Origin: Rhizobium leguminosarum
GTDB lineage: Bacteria > Pseudomonadota > Alphaproteobacteria > Rhizobiales > Rhizobiaceae
DNA length: 64,000 nucleotides
Direction: 5' to 3'
NCBI RefSeq assembly: GCF_017876795.1
Contig: NZ_JAGIOR010000001.1
Location: 4,986,501 to 5,050,500 of the forward strand
Notes under the pieces: generated by a model
The model's database searches: none
Told to the model about the DNA's origin: nothing
The model's input: the letters and a program-made list of their open reading frames with translations, nothing else
Program-made: the position numbers and the translations under genes
In this document: one piece after another, positions 7,758-48,197 of the stretch
Layout: the number at the start of each line of letters is the position of its first letter
Numbering within the stretch: position 1 is the first letter of the stretch

Positions 7758-7933
7758 GCCCCTTATCCGGCTGCAGCCACCGACCGGGGTCGAGCCACGC
7801 GTCTCGACCCGTCCTTCGGACCCCCGCCTGCGGGGCGAAGGGGATATGCCGCGACCTCTCCGTCCCTCGTCGACGTCTCGCAGGGCACGTCCCCTCGCCC
7901 CGGTTACGGGGAGAGGGTTAGGGTGAGGGGCAG
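7758..7933. repeat. RIME-like intergenic mosaic repeat, full-length copy
   Basis: This is one of several window copies that begin CCCCT(C/T)ATCCG and end GGGTTAGGGTGAGGGGCAG. Internal blocks are a CGAGCCACGCGTCTCGACCCG palindrome and a CCCCGGTTACGGGGAGAGG hairpin. It fills much of the 527-base gap between the binding-protein gene and the chemoreceptor gene. The rest of that gap (7934-8190) shows no gene; I could not assign a promoter in it. Confidence 0.8.
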
Positions 7934-10209: not shown

Positions 10210-10352
10210 CCTGCCCCTCATCCGCCTGCCGGCACCTTCTCCCCGCGCGCGGGGAGAAGGGAGCAAGCCGCAACGTTTCCGTTTTCCGCACACCTCTCGC
10301 AGGGCACGTCCCCTCGCCCCGTTTACGGGGAGAGGGTTAGGGTGAGGGGCAG
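10210..10352. repeat. RIME-like intergenic repeat
   Basis: It opens with TGCCCCTCATCCGCCTGCC and closes with GGGTTAGGGTGAGGGGCAG. Two CCCC(G/T)..GGGG hairpins are inside. It lies between the chemoreceptor and the convergent VOC gene, where it may act as a terminator or mRNA stabiliser. Confidence 0.8.
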
Positions 10353-25327: not shown

Positions 25328-26362
25328 TTACATAGCCTTACCGGCTTCGACTTCCTTGCGGATCGCGTCGCGCTCGGCATCCGGAGCGGCAACCAGGCCG
25401 TATTCGGCGAGCGGGCCGTCAGGTCCGATCATCTGGTCCGATACGAAGAAGTTGACATACTCCTTAAGGCCCGGAACGGCGCCGAGATGTGCCTTCTTGA
25501 CGTAGAAGAACAGCGGGCGGGAGACCGGATAGGTGCCGTTGGCGATCGTCTCGGTGGACGGAACGATGCCGTTTACGCTGGCAACCTTGAGCTTGTCGGC
25601 GTTGTTTTCATAGAAGGAAAGGCCGAATACGCCGACGCCGGTCTTGTTGGCGGCGATGCGTGCCAGGGTTTCCGGATAGTCGCCGTCGATGTCGACAGCA
25701 GCGCCGTCCTTGCGGACTGCAACGCAGGCCTTGCCCTGGGCAGCCTTGTCGGCGATTTCCTTGGCAATGACGTCGACAGCGCCAGCGGCCTTGCAGCCGG
25801 CGGCGAGAACGTTCTGTTCGAAGACTTCGCGGGTGCCGTGCTTTTCGCCCGGGATATAGGCCGCGATATCAACAGCCGGAAGCTTCGGGTTGACTTCCGA
25901 CCACTTCTTGTAAGGGTTGGCGACGAGCTTGCCGTCGACGACGACCTGGGCTGCGAGGGCCTTGTAGATGTCTGCGGGAACGTAGGCAACATCCGGGTTG
26001 GAAGCGTCGGTTGCGAAGACGATGCCGTCATAACCGATCTTGACTTCCTGAATGTCGGTGACGCCGGCAGCCTTGCAGGCTTCGGCTTCGTTCTTGTTGA
26101 TCGGACGCGAAGCGTTTGCAACGTCGATGGTGTCTTCGCCAACGCCCTTGCAGAATTCCTTCAGACCAGCGCCCGTGCCGCCGGATTCAACGACCGGCGT
26201 CTTGAAGTTGGTGAAGGTTTCGCCGAAGGACTCGGCAACGATCTTTGCGTAAGGCAGGACGGTGGACGAACCAGCAACCTGAATCTGGTCGCGGGCGACG
26301 GCAGCGCCAGCGAAAGCGGCGGTTGCAGCGAGCGCGGCAACGGTGAGCTTGAAGGTGTTCAT
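25328..26362 (-). CDS. pstS: Phosphate-binding periplasmic protein PstS
   Basis: 344 residues with a signal peptide (LTVAALAATAAFAGAAVARD). The ligand site is visible: QVAGSSTVLPYAKIVAESF, VVESGGTGAGLKEFCKGVGE, DVANASRPINKNEAEACKAA and KHGTREVFEQNVL. PstS captures phosphate for PstCAB. First gene of the operon; a Pho box lies about 118 bases upstream. The ATG at 26362 (MNTFKL) gives a normal signal peptide; a 5-residue extension is in frame. Confidence 0.97.
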   Translation of the reverse strand: MNTFKLTVAALAATAAFAGAAVARDQIQVAGSSTVLPYAKIVAESFGETFTNFKTPVVESGGTGAGLKEFCKGVGEDTIDVANASRPINKNEAEACKAAGVTDIQEVKIGYDGIVFATDASNPDVAYVPADIYKALAAQVVVDGKLVANPYKKWSEVNPKLPAVDIAAYIPGEKHGTREVFEQNVLAAGCKAAGAVDVIAKEIADKAAQGKACVAVRKDGAAVDIDGDYPETLARIAANKTGVGVFGLSFYENNADKLKVASVNGIVPSTETIANGTYPVSRPLFFYVKKAHLGAVPGLKEYVNFFVSDQMIGPDGPLAEYGLVAAPDAERDAIRKEVEAGKAM

Positions 26363-26479
26363 TAAAATCTCCCGCATTGGGCTTGTGTGAGTGCGGCCTT
26401 TAGAGAGGCCCTCGCAGTGCCTTTTTTCATCGGCGGGACTCTCTTAGCGCTGTAAGCACCGTCCTTTTATGTCAAATCG

Positions 26480-26497
26480 GTGAAACATTTGTGACAG
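26480..26497 (-). promoter_or_regulatory. Pho box upstream of pstS
   Basis: On the minus strand the sequence is CTGTCACAAATGTTTCAC: two 7-base half-sites (CTGTCAC, GTTTCAC) separated by AAAT, close to the PhoB consensus with its 11-base periodicity. It points toward pstS. Inference: PhoB activates pstSCAB-phoU-phoB from here. Confidence 0.82.
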
Positions 26498-26658
26498 TTT
26501 AAGTTGTTGATATTGAATGCAAATTTTCGCTGAGGCCGAGCGAATGCGTCAGCAAGGCCATGAACTTCGGGCGCCCCTCTACTTTTTGTTGTAAAATTTG
26601 TCCGAACATCATCATGGCGTGCCGGATAGAAGGTAACGGAGGTGACGGGTCTCTGGTG

Positions 26659-26702
26659 TCCCCTCTCCCCGTAAAACGGGGAGAGGGTTAGGGTGAGGGG
26701 CA
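26659..26702. repeat. Left inverted repeat flanking the DUF559 gene (RIME end)
   Basis: A 44-base RIME terminal block: hairpin CTCCCCGTAAAACGGGGAG then GGGTTAGGGTGAGGGGCA. It is the inverted counterpart of 27145-27189, identical but for the hairpin loop. The in-frame GTG at 26693 of the enclosed gene lies inside it. Confidence 0.88.
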
Positions 26703-26722
26703 AATCACACGGAACGACTTCA

Positions 26723-27124
26723 ATGAGAGGCGCCAAGCCGAAAACCACCGCCCGAGCGCGATCGTTGCGTCGGTCAGATAACGACGCAGAAGACAAATTG
26801 TGGAAAGAGCTGCGCGATCGGCGGCTCAACGGAATAAAGTTCGTCCGGCAATTGCCGATCGGTCCCTACTTTGCGGATTTTGCCTGCCGTGAACTGCGCC
26901 TCGTGATCGAAGTCGACGGCAGCCAACACTCCGGAGATCGAAGAGATGGAATTCGAGATGCCTTCATGATCGGCAATGGCTGGTCGGTCGTCCGCTTCTG
27001 GAATGTGGACGTGCTGAAAGCGCTGCCGTCCGTGCTGGATACTATTCTTGCAATCCACGACGGCCGATTGACCGAACGCGTCGAGGTGGCGGATTTGCGA
27101 TTCTTTCCGGCTGCGAGCGATTAG
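26723..27124 (+). CDS. DUF559 (Vsr-like PD-(D/E)XK) endonuclease-domain protein
   Basis: 133 residues. DUF559 pattern: ARSLRRSDNDAEDKLWKELR, RRLNGIKFVRQLPIGPYFAD, FACRELRLVIEVDGSQHSGD, then GWSVVRFWNVDVLKALPSVL. The Asp of YFADFAC and the EVDGSQH motif form the expected PD-(D/E)XK core of Vsr-related nucleases. Activity of these short proteins has not been shown to my knowledge. It is antisense to the pho genes around it and sits between inverted RIME ends. A longer GTG start (26693) inside the repeat is possible. Confidence 0.88.
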   Translation: MRGAKPKTTARARSLRRSDNDAEDKLWKELRDRRLNGIKFVRQLPIGPYFADFACRELRLVIEVDGSQHSGDRRDGIRDAFMIGNGWSVVRFWNVDVLKALPSVLDTILAIHDGRLTERVEVADLRFFPAASD

Positions 27125-27144
27125 GCATGGCGTGCCGTATGGTC

Positions 27145-27189
27145 TGCCCCTCACCCTAACCCTCTCCCCGTAAAAACGGGGAGAGGGGA
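27145..27189. repeat. Right inverted repeat flanking the DUF559 gene (RIME end)
   Basis: A 45-base block starting TGCCCCTCACCCTAACCCTC and ending with the hairpin CTCCCCGTAAAAACGGGGAG plus AGGGGA. It is inverted relative to 26659-26702 and begins 20 bases after the DUF559 stop; the phoR stop is 20 bases further on. Confidence 0.88.
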
Positions 27190-27208: not shown

Positions 27209-28528
27209 TTAAAACCGCACGGTGAAATCGGTGCCCTTGCCGACTTCCGATTTGACGATCAGCCGGGCCCGGTGGCGGGTGAGGATGTGCTTGACGATGG
27301 CGAGGCCGAGGCCGGTGCCTTTTTTCGAGCGGCTGTCCTCGATGCTGACGCGATAGAAGCGCTCGGTCAGGCGCGGCACATGCTCGGCCGGAATGCCCGG
27401 CCCCTTGTCGACGATGCTGACCTCGACCGGCTGGCCGGCGCCGTTCTTCAGCCAGACATCGACCATCTCGCCCTCCTGGCCATATTTGCAAGCGTTTTCC
27501 ATCAGGTTCTCGAAGACCTGGACGAGCTCGTCGCGGTCTCCCAGCACCTCGACCTTGCCGTCGGGCAGATGCAGGTTGATGTCGACGCCGACATCGCTTG
27601 CCAGCGGGCCGAGTGAATCCCTGACGTGGCCGAGCAGCGGAACCAGGTCGACCTTCTCATCCGGGGCGATGTGCGATTTCAGCTCCAGGCGAGAGAGCGA
27701 CAGCAGGTCGTCGACCAGCCTGCTCATGCGCGTCGTCTGATCGAACATGATGGCGAGGAAGCGCGCCTGCGCCTTCAGATCGTTCTTCGCCGGTCCCTGG
27801 ATGGTCTCGATGAAGCCGCGCAGCGAGGCTAGCGGCGTGCGCAGCTCGTGGCTGGCATTGGCGACGAAATCCGACCGCATGCGGTCGATGCGACGAACCT
27901 CTGAAATATCGCGGAAGGAGAGAATGAAATAACGCTCGTGCGGCCCGCCATCTGCCGAAAATTCAATGGGGGCGCTGCGGACGATATAGACACGCTCGGA
28001 GGGCAGCCGCTCGGCATGCTCGATCTGGTTCGGCGCGTTGGTGGCAATAGTTTCGCGCACCATGTCGAGCACGCCGGGCGAACGCATGCGGCCCGATATA
28101 TGGGCGCCGAGCGCCACCTCGCCGAAGGCCTTTTCGGCAGCCCGGTTCTGGAAGAGCACCGAGGCATCGTCCGACAGCACCATGACCGGGATATCGAGGC
28201 CGGCGAGCGTGGCGGACACTTCCGGCAGGCGGCTTGGCAACACTTCCGGCTTGATCTCAACCGGCTCGACCGGTTCTGCCTTGATATCAGGCGCCTCGTT
28301 GAAAAGCGCGGTGACGATCATCACAAACAGCAGGACGAGCACCACCCACTTGTTCATGCCGGCGGCAAGCGCGACGAGCGCGCTGAGGATCGCCGCCAGC
28401 AGCACCGGCCGTTCGCGCCGGATGCGCGCCAACAGGCTTTTTCTCGATGGAGTTTCGTCTTGCAAGTGCCCTCGCGGCGTCGATTCGTTGTTCTTGATAT
28501 TGAACTCTGCCTGATAGCGGCAATTCAT
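27209..28528 (-). CDS. phoR: Phosphate regulon sensor histidine kinase PhoR
   Basis: 439 residues from the ATG at 28528. Two hydrophobic helices (about 42-57, 61-76) anchor the protein; a PAS-like domain (about 105-205) follows. The HisKA box is FVANASHELRTPLASLRGF, with His227. The ATPase has N box NLMENACKYG, G1 DKGPGIPAEHV and G2 GTGLGLAIVKH. It controls PhoB phosphorylation with PhoU and Pst. The frame stays open further upstream and no strong ribosome site marks the start, so the N-terminus is uncertain. It is separated from pstS by the DUF559 insertion. Confidence 0.92.
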   Translation of the reverse strand: MNCRYQAEFNIKNNESTPRGHLQDETPSRKSLLARIRRERPVLLAAILSALVALAAGMNKWVVLVLLFVMIVTALFNEAPDIKAEPVEPVEIKPEVLPSRLPEVSATLAGLDIPVMVLSDDASVLFQNRAAEKAFGEVALGAHISGRMRSPGVLDMVRETIATNAPNQIEHAERLPSERVYIVRSAPIEFSADGGPHERYFILSFRDISEVRRIDRMRSDFVANASHELRTPLASLRGFIETIQGPAKNDLKAQARFLAIMFDQTTRMSRLVDDLLSLSRLELKSHIAPDEKVDLVPLLGHVRDSLGPLASDVGVDINLHLPDGKVEVLGDRDELVQVFENLMENACKYGQEGEMVDVWLKNGAGQPVEVSIVDKGPGIPAEHVPRLTERFYRVSIEDSRSKKGTGLGLAIVKHILTRHRARLIVKSEVGKGTDFTVRF

Positions 28529-28670
28529 GACAGAAGTTTTCGGGCTGCCGCTTCGATGTGAAAGGCCGCGGGCGAAACCCACAAAAAATACCGGCCGAAC
28601 GCGAAAGATTTGATTTTCAACGGTAACTATGCTCGCCTGCGGGAAAGAAGCGATCGCTGAGGAGGAGCAT

Positions 28671-29552
28671 ATGGCCGAGACCGTCGAAAGCAGGGCTGTG
28701 GAGCTGGATATCCGCGGCAAGAAGCGCACCTTCGATGTCGACAATCCCGTCCTGCCGGACTGGGTGGAGGAACACGCACTGGCTTCCGGCGACTTTCCGT
28801 ACAAGAAGAAGCTGAGGGAAGAGGATTATCTGGAGCAGCTGGAAAAGCTGCAGGTGGAACTGATCAAGGTGCAGTTCTGGCTGCAGGCATCAGGCAAGCG
28901 GGTAATGGCGCTGTTCGAAGGGCGCGACGCTGCCGGCAAGGGCGGCGCGATCTCGGCCTCCTCGGCGCATATGAACCCTCGTCTTGCACGCGTCGTGGCG
29001 CTGACCAAGCCGACCGAGCGCGAACAGGGGCAATGGTATTTTCAGCGTTATGTCGCGCAGTTTCCAACGGCTGGCGAATTCGTGCTGTTCGACCGCTCAT
29101 GGTACAACCGCGCCGGCGTCGAGCCGGTCATGGGTTTCTGCACGCCGCAGCAATATGAGGGCTTCCTCAAACAGGCACCGCAGCTCGAAAAGATCATCTC
29201 CCATGAGGGCATCTTCTTCTTCAAATTCTATCTCGATATCGGCCGCGAAATGCAGCTGAAGCGCTTCCACGACCGCAGGCACGATCCGTTGAAAGTCTGG
29301 AAACTGTCGTCGATGGACATCGCAGCGCTGACGAAGTGGGGCGATTATAGCGACAAGCGCGACCGGATGCTGAAGGAAACCCATACGGATTTCGCGCCCT
29401 GGACGGTGATTCGCGCCAACGACAAGCGGCGGGCGCGCCTCGAACTCATCCGCCACATGCTGCACCGGATGGATTATGACGGCAAGGACAAGACGGTGCT
29501 CGGCACGGTCGATGAGGAGATCATCGGCTCAGGGCCTGGATTCTTGAAATAG
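28671..29552 (+). CDS. ppk2: Polyphosphate kinase 2
   Basis: 293 residues. PPK2 uses polyphosphate to phosphorylate nucleoside diphosphates (or the reverse). It has the Walker [21 protein letters not shown], the lid region [20 protein letters not shown], Walker [18 protein letters not shown] and [19 protein letters not shown]. These match class I, the GDP/ADP-phosphorylating group known from Sinorhizobium. The start is preceded by GAGGAGGAG. It diverges from phoR, so phosphate sensing and polyphosphate use are neighbours. Confidence 0.93.
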
Positions 29553-48056: not shown

Positions 48057-48197
48057 GCCCCTCATCCGCCTGCCGGCACCTTCTCCCCGTAAACGGGGCG
48101 AAGGGATATGCCGCGACCTCTCCGCTCCCCACCCACCTCTCGCATGGCACGTCCCCTCTCCCCGTTTTTACGGGGAGAGGGTTAGGGTGAGGGGCAG
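48057..48197. repeat. RIME-like intergenic repeat
   Basis: It begins GCCCCTCATCCGCCTGCCGG and ends GGGTTAGGGTGAGGGGCAG, with hairpins CCCCGTAAACGGGG and CCCCGTTTTTACGGGG. It lies between the convergent dehydrogenase and cutC genes, occupying most of the 240-base gap. Confidence 0.85.

Follow-up and report, generated by a model that had tools for sequence, protein, structure and literature searches.

The nuclease gene between phoR and pstS

The window, by which we mean the whole 64,000-nucleotide stretch of Rhizobium leguminosarum DNA that we analysed, contains a small nuclease gene set between two phosphate genes and bracketed by inverted repeats. Further copies of the repeat core lie elsewhere in the window. 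The features are as follows.

25328..26377, minus strand: pstS-type phosphate-binding protein, neighbour
26659..26702, plus strand: left triplex-type repeat; hairpin 26661-26687, tag GGGTGAGGGG at 26691-26700, toward the gene
26676..26716, plus strand: inverted repeat running beyond the tag toward the gene start; 41 nt, 90% complementary, partner 27131-27171
26693..26722, plus strand: in-frame extension from a GTG at 26693 within the left repeat; longest frame, probably unused
26723..27124, plus strand: DUF559 (Vsr-fold PD-(D/E)XK) nuclease gene; ATG to TAG, 133 aa
27145..27189, minus strand: right triplex-type repeat, inverted; tag 27147-27156 toward the gene, hairpin 27160-27187
27209..28804, minus strand: phoR-type histidine kinase, neighbour; longest frame
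7907..7930, minus strand: dispersed repeat-core copy
10326..10349, minus strand: dispersed repeat-core copy in a RIME-type dimer; other arm near 10213-10262, by eye
48171..48194, minus strand: dispersed repeat-core copy in a RIME-type dimer; other arm near 48058-48106, by eye

The 133-residue protein matches the Pfam profile PF04480 (DUF559) with an E-value of 5e-34 and 116.8 bits against a curated cut-off of 20.6, and the only other Pfam match, MTES_1575, is below its cut-off. The initial annotation had placed a nuclease of this kind on the strand opposite to both neighbours, and had described flanking inverted repeats of 44-45 bases that differ in the hairpin loop alone. Both descriptions agree with what we found, the loops being TAAAA on the left and TTTTTA on the right when the right repeat is turned. 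It had also pointed out an in-frame GTG start within the left repeat. The GTG at 26693 is there, but the methionine at ATG 26723 is nearly invariant in 30 relatives, so the GTG is probably not used. The window's genome (7.58 Mb) has two PF04480 matches: this gene, and a longer frame that matches weakly (E 3e-6).

We rejected two other identities for the locus. An anti-phage system was indicated by a single PADLOC match with an E-value of 0.03 that covered part of a 1550-position model, and the two Rfam matches that might have indicated a structured RNA were both far below their gathering scores. An Rfam mir-86 match at window positions 26469-26542 (E 3e-4, 29.6 bits where the gathering score is 64) is probably spurious.

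Structure and copies of the repeat

In each repeat, TTA separates a pyrimidine-purine hairpin (CCCTCTCCCCGT...ACGGGGAGAGGG) from the tag that comes after it, and the unit reads GGGGAGAGGG TTA GGGTGAGGGG. It has the hairpin, and the tag mirroring the purine arm, of the intrastrand triplex motif (TM/PIT). The 24-base core occurs five times in the window and never in 100 shuffles, and a 22-base core with at most 3 mismatches has 31 copies in the 7.58-Mb genome, with 0 for the backward control. Two of the three other window copies lie, by eye, in RIME-type dimers with two hairpin arms and outward tags. RIME is the Rhizobium-specific intergenic mosaic element (PMC2245857), and the RIME-type elements of the window are dimers of TM/PIT. 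Calling the flanking repeats RIME ends, as had been done, is therefore correct locally, and what needs changing is the breadth of the name, as the repeat is the broader intrastrand triplex motif.

Two details of the dispersed copies are recorded here. The second RIME arm (10213-10262 and 48058-48106) has TGCCGGCA between hairpin and tag, which fits YGCCGGCR, the motif methylated by Caulobacter ScmA, a methylase with a functional connection to the DUF559 protein VsrA (PMC12907096). The fit may be a coincidence. At five other loci (L088, L090, L098, L005 and L006), the sequence outside the outer ends of RIMEs looks, by eye, like the 5' and 3' flanks of a DUF559 gene, as if such a gene had once adjoined them and then decayed.

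Fold and selection of the nuclease

The predicted fold of the protein matched the DUF559 structure 3hrl, the homing endonuclease I-Bth0305I and Vsr, with an identity of 15-19% over the aligned part to the latter two. The model has a Vsr-like PD-(D/E)XK fold with conserved acidic residues; D52, E63 and H69 are invariant. There is no novelty in the fold itself: YcjD, the DUF559 protein of Escherichia coli, has long been assigned to the PD-(D/E)XK superfamily and to the neighbourhood of Vsr (PMC1189080). For the Caulobacter DUF559 protein VsrA, a mismatch-repair nuclease acting on TG mismatches has been proposed, and VsrA causes an SOS response on loss of the methylase ScmA (PMC12907096).

The gene is under purifying selection. 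In 14 pairs of DUF559 genes dN/dS was 0.04-0.26; of the 43 sequences in the set, 3 had been removed because of stop codons or frame problems.

Repeats at the flanks of DUF559 genes

PF04480 is present in 137 of 247 genomes of the order. We sampled 60 of the 137, taking one best match each and the first 60 distinct by E-value, and a few of these loci were cut by contig ends. The flank search presupposed no repeat, and the controls were the same geometry placed elsewhere in the same loci. A bracketing inverted pair with a score of at least 18 was present at 34/60 DUF559 loci against 0/1457 control placements, and with a score of at least 14 at 41/60 against 10/1457. A pyrimidine-purine palindrome was found in the flanks of 51/60 loci against 16/757 control places; the remaining 9 had none. 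An excess of RIME ends at DUF559 genes had been named as a condition that the cassette reading must satisfy, and these counts come out in its favour.

Outside the order, 10 of 18 scored loci (those of a set of 30 that lie outside it) had an inverted pair of at least 14, against 5 of 216 placements. When we looked specifically for the window's repeat type with the tag inward, among the best 80 of 281 relatives, it was on both sides in 33, on one side in 19 and on neither in 28, and 24 of those 28 carry a different palindrome of broadly this kind. From 15 plasmid loci we picked four (two Synechocystis, one Deinococcus and one Azospirillum), all of which had such a palindrome adjoining the gene, by eye and uncontrolled. 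A PF04480 search on 14 control genomes gave matches in only 2, Caulobacter vibrioides and Corynebacterium glutamicum.

We considered whether the association could come from chance or base composition, since G/C-rich repeats favour short palindromes and a few control placements also score. The control placements are from the same loci, and the backward-pattern controls and the shuffles both gave 0, so we regard such an artefact as barely conceivable.

Two loci in this survey are worth describing. Rhizobium johnstonii 3841 has two DUF559 cassettes about 37 kb apart on one chromosome (L004, L005), both with inward repeats. At L007 the DUF559 gene lacks the left repeat and has GTCAGGTATCATCCCGGTCC... 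in its place, a sequence which also borders L085 and is similar to L103; it is perhaps the end of an insertion sequence.

Polarity and arm-tag covariation

In the 60 loci of the order, the nearest complete repeat had its tag toward the DUF559 gene in 57 cases and away in 4, and 23 of 24 two-sided loci had both tags inward.

The tags also follow their arms. At the DUF559 loci, the arm GAGAGG goes with the tag GGGTGAGGG in 58 units, GAGAAGG with GGATGAGGG in 23 and GGGGAGG with GGGAGGGGG in 12, and mismatched combinations account for 0 of these 93 classified units, which leave out 119 of 212 hairpins that lacked all three tags within 45 nt. Counted by locus the classes number 21, 15 and 7, in the same order. 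The three tag classes were chosen after inspecting sequences from a first, automated mirror test. That test gave 0.721 for a unit's own arm, 0.677 for swapped arms (sd 0.006, 200 rounds) and 0.697 for the unmirrored arm; it was diluted by wrong hairpin choice, so we used the class table instead. Each tag is the mirror of its own arm with at most one A-to-T change, which matches the requirement of an intramolecular purine triplex. As read from these sequences, the covariation suggests that the fold of the repeat, rather than its sequence, is conserved.

Repeat number and presence of the gene

We next compared repeat number with the presence of the gene, at several levels. The tables for Rhizobium, Enterobacteriaceae (including the 4.0-Mb subset) and E. 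coli were compiled by hand from listings, and the tests correct only incompletely for shared descent. Backward-pattern controls were 0 in the Rhizobium, order and Enterobacteriaceae counts.

Among 120 Rhizobium genomes, 22 were counted as having a close relative of the gene, by a cut at about 180 bits; in one of them (G002) the gene is interrupted by a stop codon. The median number of repeats was 31 in these 22 and 9.5 in the other 98 (p 3e-7). In a paired test on the 10 genomes with a readable pst locus, 9 had more copies than their nearest gene-less relative (p 0.006), with one relative (G011) serving for 4 of the 10. At the level of the order, DUF559 was found in 57 of 66 pattern-positive genomes and 80 of 181 pattern-negative genomes. 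Among 149 Enterobacteriaceae genomes (nearly one per genus), 20 had a YcjD-like match, 3 of them weak or fragmentary. Of these 20, 15 had at least 5 exact repeats, as did 5 of the remaining 129 (p 1e-12), and when only the 74 genomes of at least 4.0 Mb were counted the figures were 15/19 and 5/55 (p 2e-8).

There are exceptions in both directions. The exact pattern is absent from 80 of the 137 DUF559-bearing genomes of the order, and 9 pattern-positive genomes have no DUF559, including G120 (18 copies), G325 (14), G153 (12) and G330 (11). Rhizobium G023 has 65 copies, and its only DUF559 match is distant and in a longer frame. Among the enterics, G506 (65 copies) and G564 (30) are repeat-rich without PF04480. 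We looked for a diverged DUF559 hidden in the five repeat-rich enterics and rejected it, as the HMM found none in four, and the fifth yielded only one weak, partial match, within a frame of 1991 residues.

Repeat-rich genomes without the gene are what one would expect if DUF559 were a Vsr-like host repair nuclease that deals with lesions or mismatches at triplex-forming repeats and owes its place beside them to regulation or history, while the repeats spread by some other route. Vsr is a fold neighbour, and the proposal that VsrA acts on TG mismatches, together with its induction of SOS (PMC12907096), is in line with a repair role. We nevertheless think this account unlikely, because it predicts neither the inward-pointing inverted copies at the gene nor the higher copy number of gene-bearing genomes.

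ycjD and the enteric loci

In E. coli K-12 the DUF559 gene is ycjD, between fabI and sapF. TMECO 9, one of the known triplex motif copies, lies about 168 bp beyond the 3' end of ycjD, and by eye a degenerate second hairpin overlaps the ycjD stop codon. As a lone case this adjacency is weak, and its value is in its agreement with the other evidence.

The ycjD region is present in 3,364 of 5,426 E. coli genomes. In 60 records taken at even steps, the median was 19 repeat-like places in the 37 with ycjD and 5 in the 23 without (p 4e-9 after removal of the gene's own place). The distribution of ycjD in E. coli follows phylogroup (PMC12817139), so descent confounds this test. Five fetched loci without ycjD (L268-L272, compared with L243) have efflux-operon genes at fabI or sapF, and this swap of ycjD for efflux-operon genes between fabI and sapF is already in print (PMC12817139).

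In 14 of the 20 YcjD-like loci of Enterobacteriaceae the last 6-9 bases of the matched stretch already belong to a repeat with its tag inward, and in 13 of those 14 a repeat of opposite sense lies 52-386 bases further on. Four of the 20 matches run across one TGA. Since the repeat overlaps the matched end, it is often translated as a ...PSPRPSP tail. We noticed the same at the 3' ends of DUF559 genes in L244-L255, where in-frame triplex repeats yield C-terminal tails such as PSPRPSP, and other annotated proteins with such end peptides may simply run into a repeat.

History at the junction and elsewhere

We assembled 65 complete phoR-pstS junctions (the window's own included) from the closest 70 of 117 pstS matches. 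Empty sites had been suggested as a check on mobility, and we found them across the genus: 32 of the 65 junctions have a short spacer of 186-196 bases, and a palindrome is present in 0 of these 32. The short junctions are mostly in other branches, and many may never have been occupied.

Eight genomes have an intact DUF559 gene beside pstS. It is reversed in the window and in G012, and forward in G017, G026, G039, G063, G089 and G101, with phoR out of view for G012, G063 and G101. In six relatives the two flanks are those of the window but have changed places. At L184 (G074) a stretch that looks, by eye, like part of an insertion sequence lies between the DUF559 gene and pstS.

Decay is also visible at phoR-pstS. 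The gene is split in L199 and mostly deleted in L202, and in L198 and L200 its 3' end alone remains, by eye. For the one-hairpin form we compared five relatives. L084 and L089 contain a single degenerate hairpin, and both outer flanks align across it with scores of 77 and 75, where the best of 100 shuffles reached 26; L096 and L176 aligned on one flank only, and L087 did not align. A one-hairpin product was also found in E. coli, at hrpB-mrcB in L283. Given one-hairpin forms in both groups, deletion between hairpins looks like a decay route common to Rhizobium and E. coli. The hairpin arms permit inversion too, and neither deletion nor inversion needs the nuclease.

Events of this kind bring in the possibility that the repeats are hot spots or terminators and that DUF559 genes were captured between them by recombination. 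The one-hairpin forms in Rhizobium and E. coli fit hairpin-hairpin recombination, and an inverted cassette can come from recombination between arms. Capture should hit many genes, however, and placements away from the gene within the same loci scored 0/1457 at 18. In addition, the gene is under purifying selection, and we consider capture very unlikely.

The initial annotation had described the unit of about 530 bases as looking like a mobile cassette, with no target duplication confirmed. Part of this stands. Among 75 relatives with long flanks (74 and the window) the gene has 17 contexts, with both orientations at phoR-pstS, and empty sites exist. On the other side, one conserved place is shared by 40 of the 75 loci in several genera, the protein is in only 45 of 72,556 plasmid records and 2 of 50,697 phage records, and the cassette is not multi-copy: the window's genome has one close copy, and a second was found in 1 of the 22 Rhizobium genomes (G039). 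As before, no target duplication was confirmed at phoR-pstS; a non-systematic look at that junction and at the E. coli dimers found none that could be read. At hrpB-mrcB and lldD-trmL the differences between E. coli strains include local replacement, and with no duplication readable we rejected clean insertion boundaries there. In E. coli BL21 (L280) the repeat dimer at lldD-trmL is interrupted by a short inverted sequence which we take to resemble transposon ends.

These observations bear on whether repeat, gene and repeat are one cut-and-paste unit, an autonomous transposon, whose internally deleted derivatives are the solitary dimers. The 17 contexts, the two orientations at one junction, the gene remnants between repeats at phoR-pstS and the E. 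coli hrpB-mrcB dimer, which with its inward tags resembles a gene-less cassette, all fit such a unit. Against it are the single close copy in 21 of the 22 Rhizobium genomes, the one locus retained in 40 of 75 relatives, the rarity on plasmids and phages, and target duplications not being seen at phoR-pstS or the E. coli dimers. We judge it quite unlikely.

The conserved place and the rarity on plasmids and phages point to long vertical inheritance with occasional relocation. REP/RAYT systems have a similar history, and for this reason we prefer a trans-acting role to a free transposon: the gene looks mostly vertically inherited and occasionally relocated, and may serve the repeats in trans.

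A probable nuclease dedicated to the repeats

We think it probable that a dispersed family of triplex repeats has DUF559 as its own dedicated nuclease, in the manner of REP/RAYT and with unrelated chemistry. All of the evidence for this reading is comparative, and the repeat-rich genomes without the gene count against it.

If the reading is correct, the repeat would fold as a pyrimidine-purine hairpin whose purine arm takes the mirror-symmetric tag as a third strand. The nuclease would recognise the folded repeat and nick or cut beside it, and repair or strand transfer would copy repeat monomers and dimers (RIME, TM/PIT) into intergenic sites. Now and then, a gene between inward-facing repeats would change its place or orientation, or be lost, together with them. 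With a homing endonuclease and a mismatch nickase among the fold neighbours, both break-and-copy and nick-based routes are possible. Spread by break-and-copy repair is a serious but tentative candidate, and single-strand transposition is possible and somewhat less favoured by us.

A larger claim can be put forward only tentatively, as something short of an even chance. DUF559 proteins may be structure-directed nucleases that read an intramolecular triplex, and that created and maintain triplex-forming repeats such as RIME and TM/PIT in Pseudomonadota and probably also in Cyanobacteriota and Deinococcota. They would then be a second counterpart of REP/RAYT, unrelated in its chemistry, and YcjD and TMECO would be the pair found in E. 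coli K-12.

The pairing with DUF559 recurs from root-nodule bacteria to E. coli, and offers a candidate partner for a repeat family whose spread is unexplained: an orphan repeat gains a candidate enzyme, and an orphan enzyme gains a candidate substrate. Since nuclease and repeat are both in E. coli K-12, the question is directly testable. If the reading is true, DUF559 would be a natural protein reader of intramolecular triplex DNA.

Comparison with known systems

The closest known repeat is the intrastrand triplex motif, described from more than 260 genomes and represented in E. coli K-12 by 23 TMECO copies (PMC4666352). It is the same repeat as ours, a hairpin with a third-strand tag, and TMECO 9 of Table 1 in that paper is the copy adjoining ycjD. 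The triplex was reported in vitro and not stably in vivo, mobility functions such as transposase remnants were never found around TMECO sites, and the main text of this 2015 paper does not mention ycjD (PMC4666352). RIME is resembled by the window's solitary copies, with their two hairpin arms and outward tags, but the accessible part of its description presents it as a repeat only and links no nuclease to it (PMC2245857). Within the open-licence literature we found no published link between DUF559 or ycjD and triplex repeats; a record elsewhere is possible.

On the enzyme side, Caulobacter VsrA has the same Pfam domain as the window protein, but no link to repeats is described in the accessible part of the VsrA paper (PMC12907096). 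For the DUF559 gene, homing as in I-Bth0305I serves as an analogy only. Insertion sequences and transposons differ from the DUF559 units, which do not have multiple near-identical copies per genome.

The system most like ours in organisation is REP/REPIN with RAYT (TnpA-REP), in which dispersed, side-tagged palindromes, often inverted dimers, flank a nuclease gene, and in which repeats and gene are not always together (PMC3733652). In the DUF559 case, too, dispersed repeats also flank the nuclease gene. The enzyme is different, being a Vsr-fold PD-(D/E)XK protein and not an HUH/Y1 tyrosine transposase, and we rejected a RAYT in disguise because there is no such Pfam domain and the fold is of restriction type. 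The tag is different as well: it is of the GGGTGAGGGG type and mirror-symmetric to the arm, where REP has GTAG. The CGTC REPs, described as having no dedicated transposase in the accessible part of that source, have an 8-9 bp stem with AT pairs at the first and second position and a CGTC tag (PMC3733652). We rejected them as the family of our repeat, as the window's stem CCCTCTCCCCGT and its tag differ.

The DUF559-repeat pair would work like REP/RAYT and is not a member of it, since both enzyme and tag differ. Because neither the enzyme nor the repeat resembles its REP/RAYT counterpart, we regard the pair as a new kind of system, although on a stricter view it could be counted as a variant of a palindromic repeat plus a dedicated nuclease.
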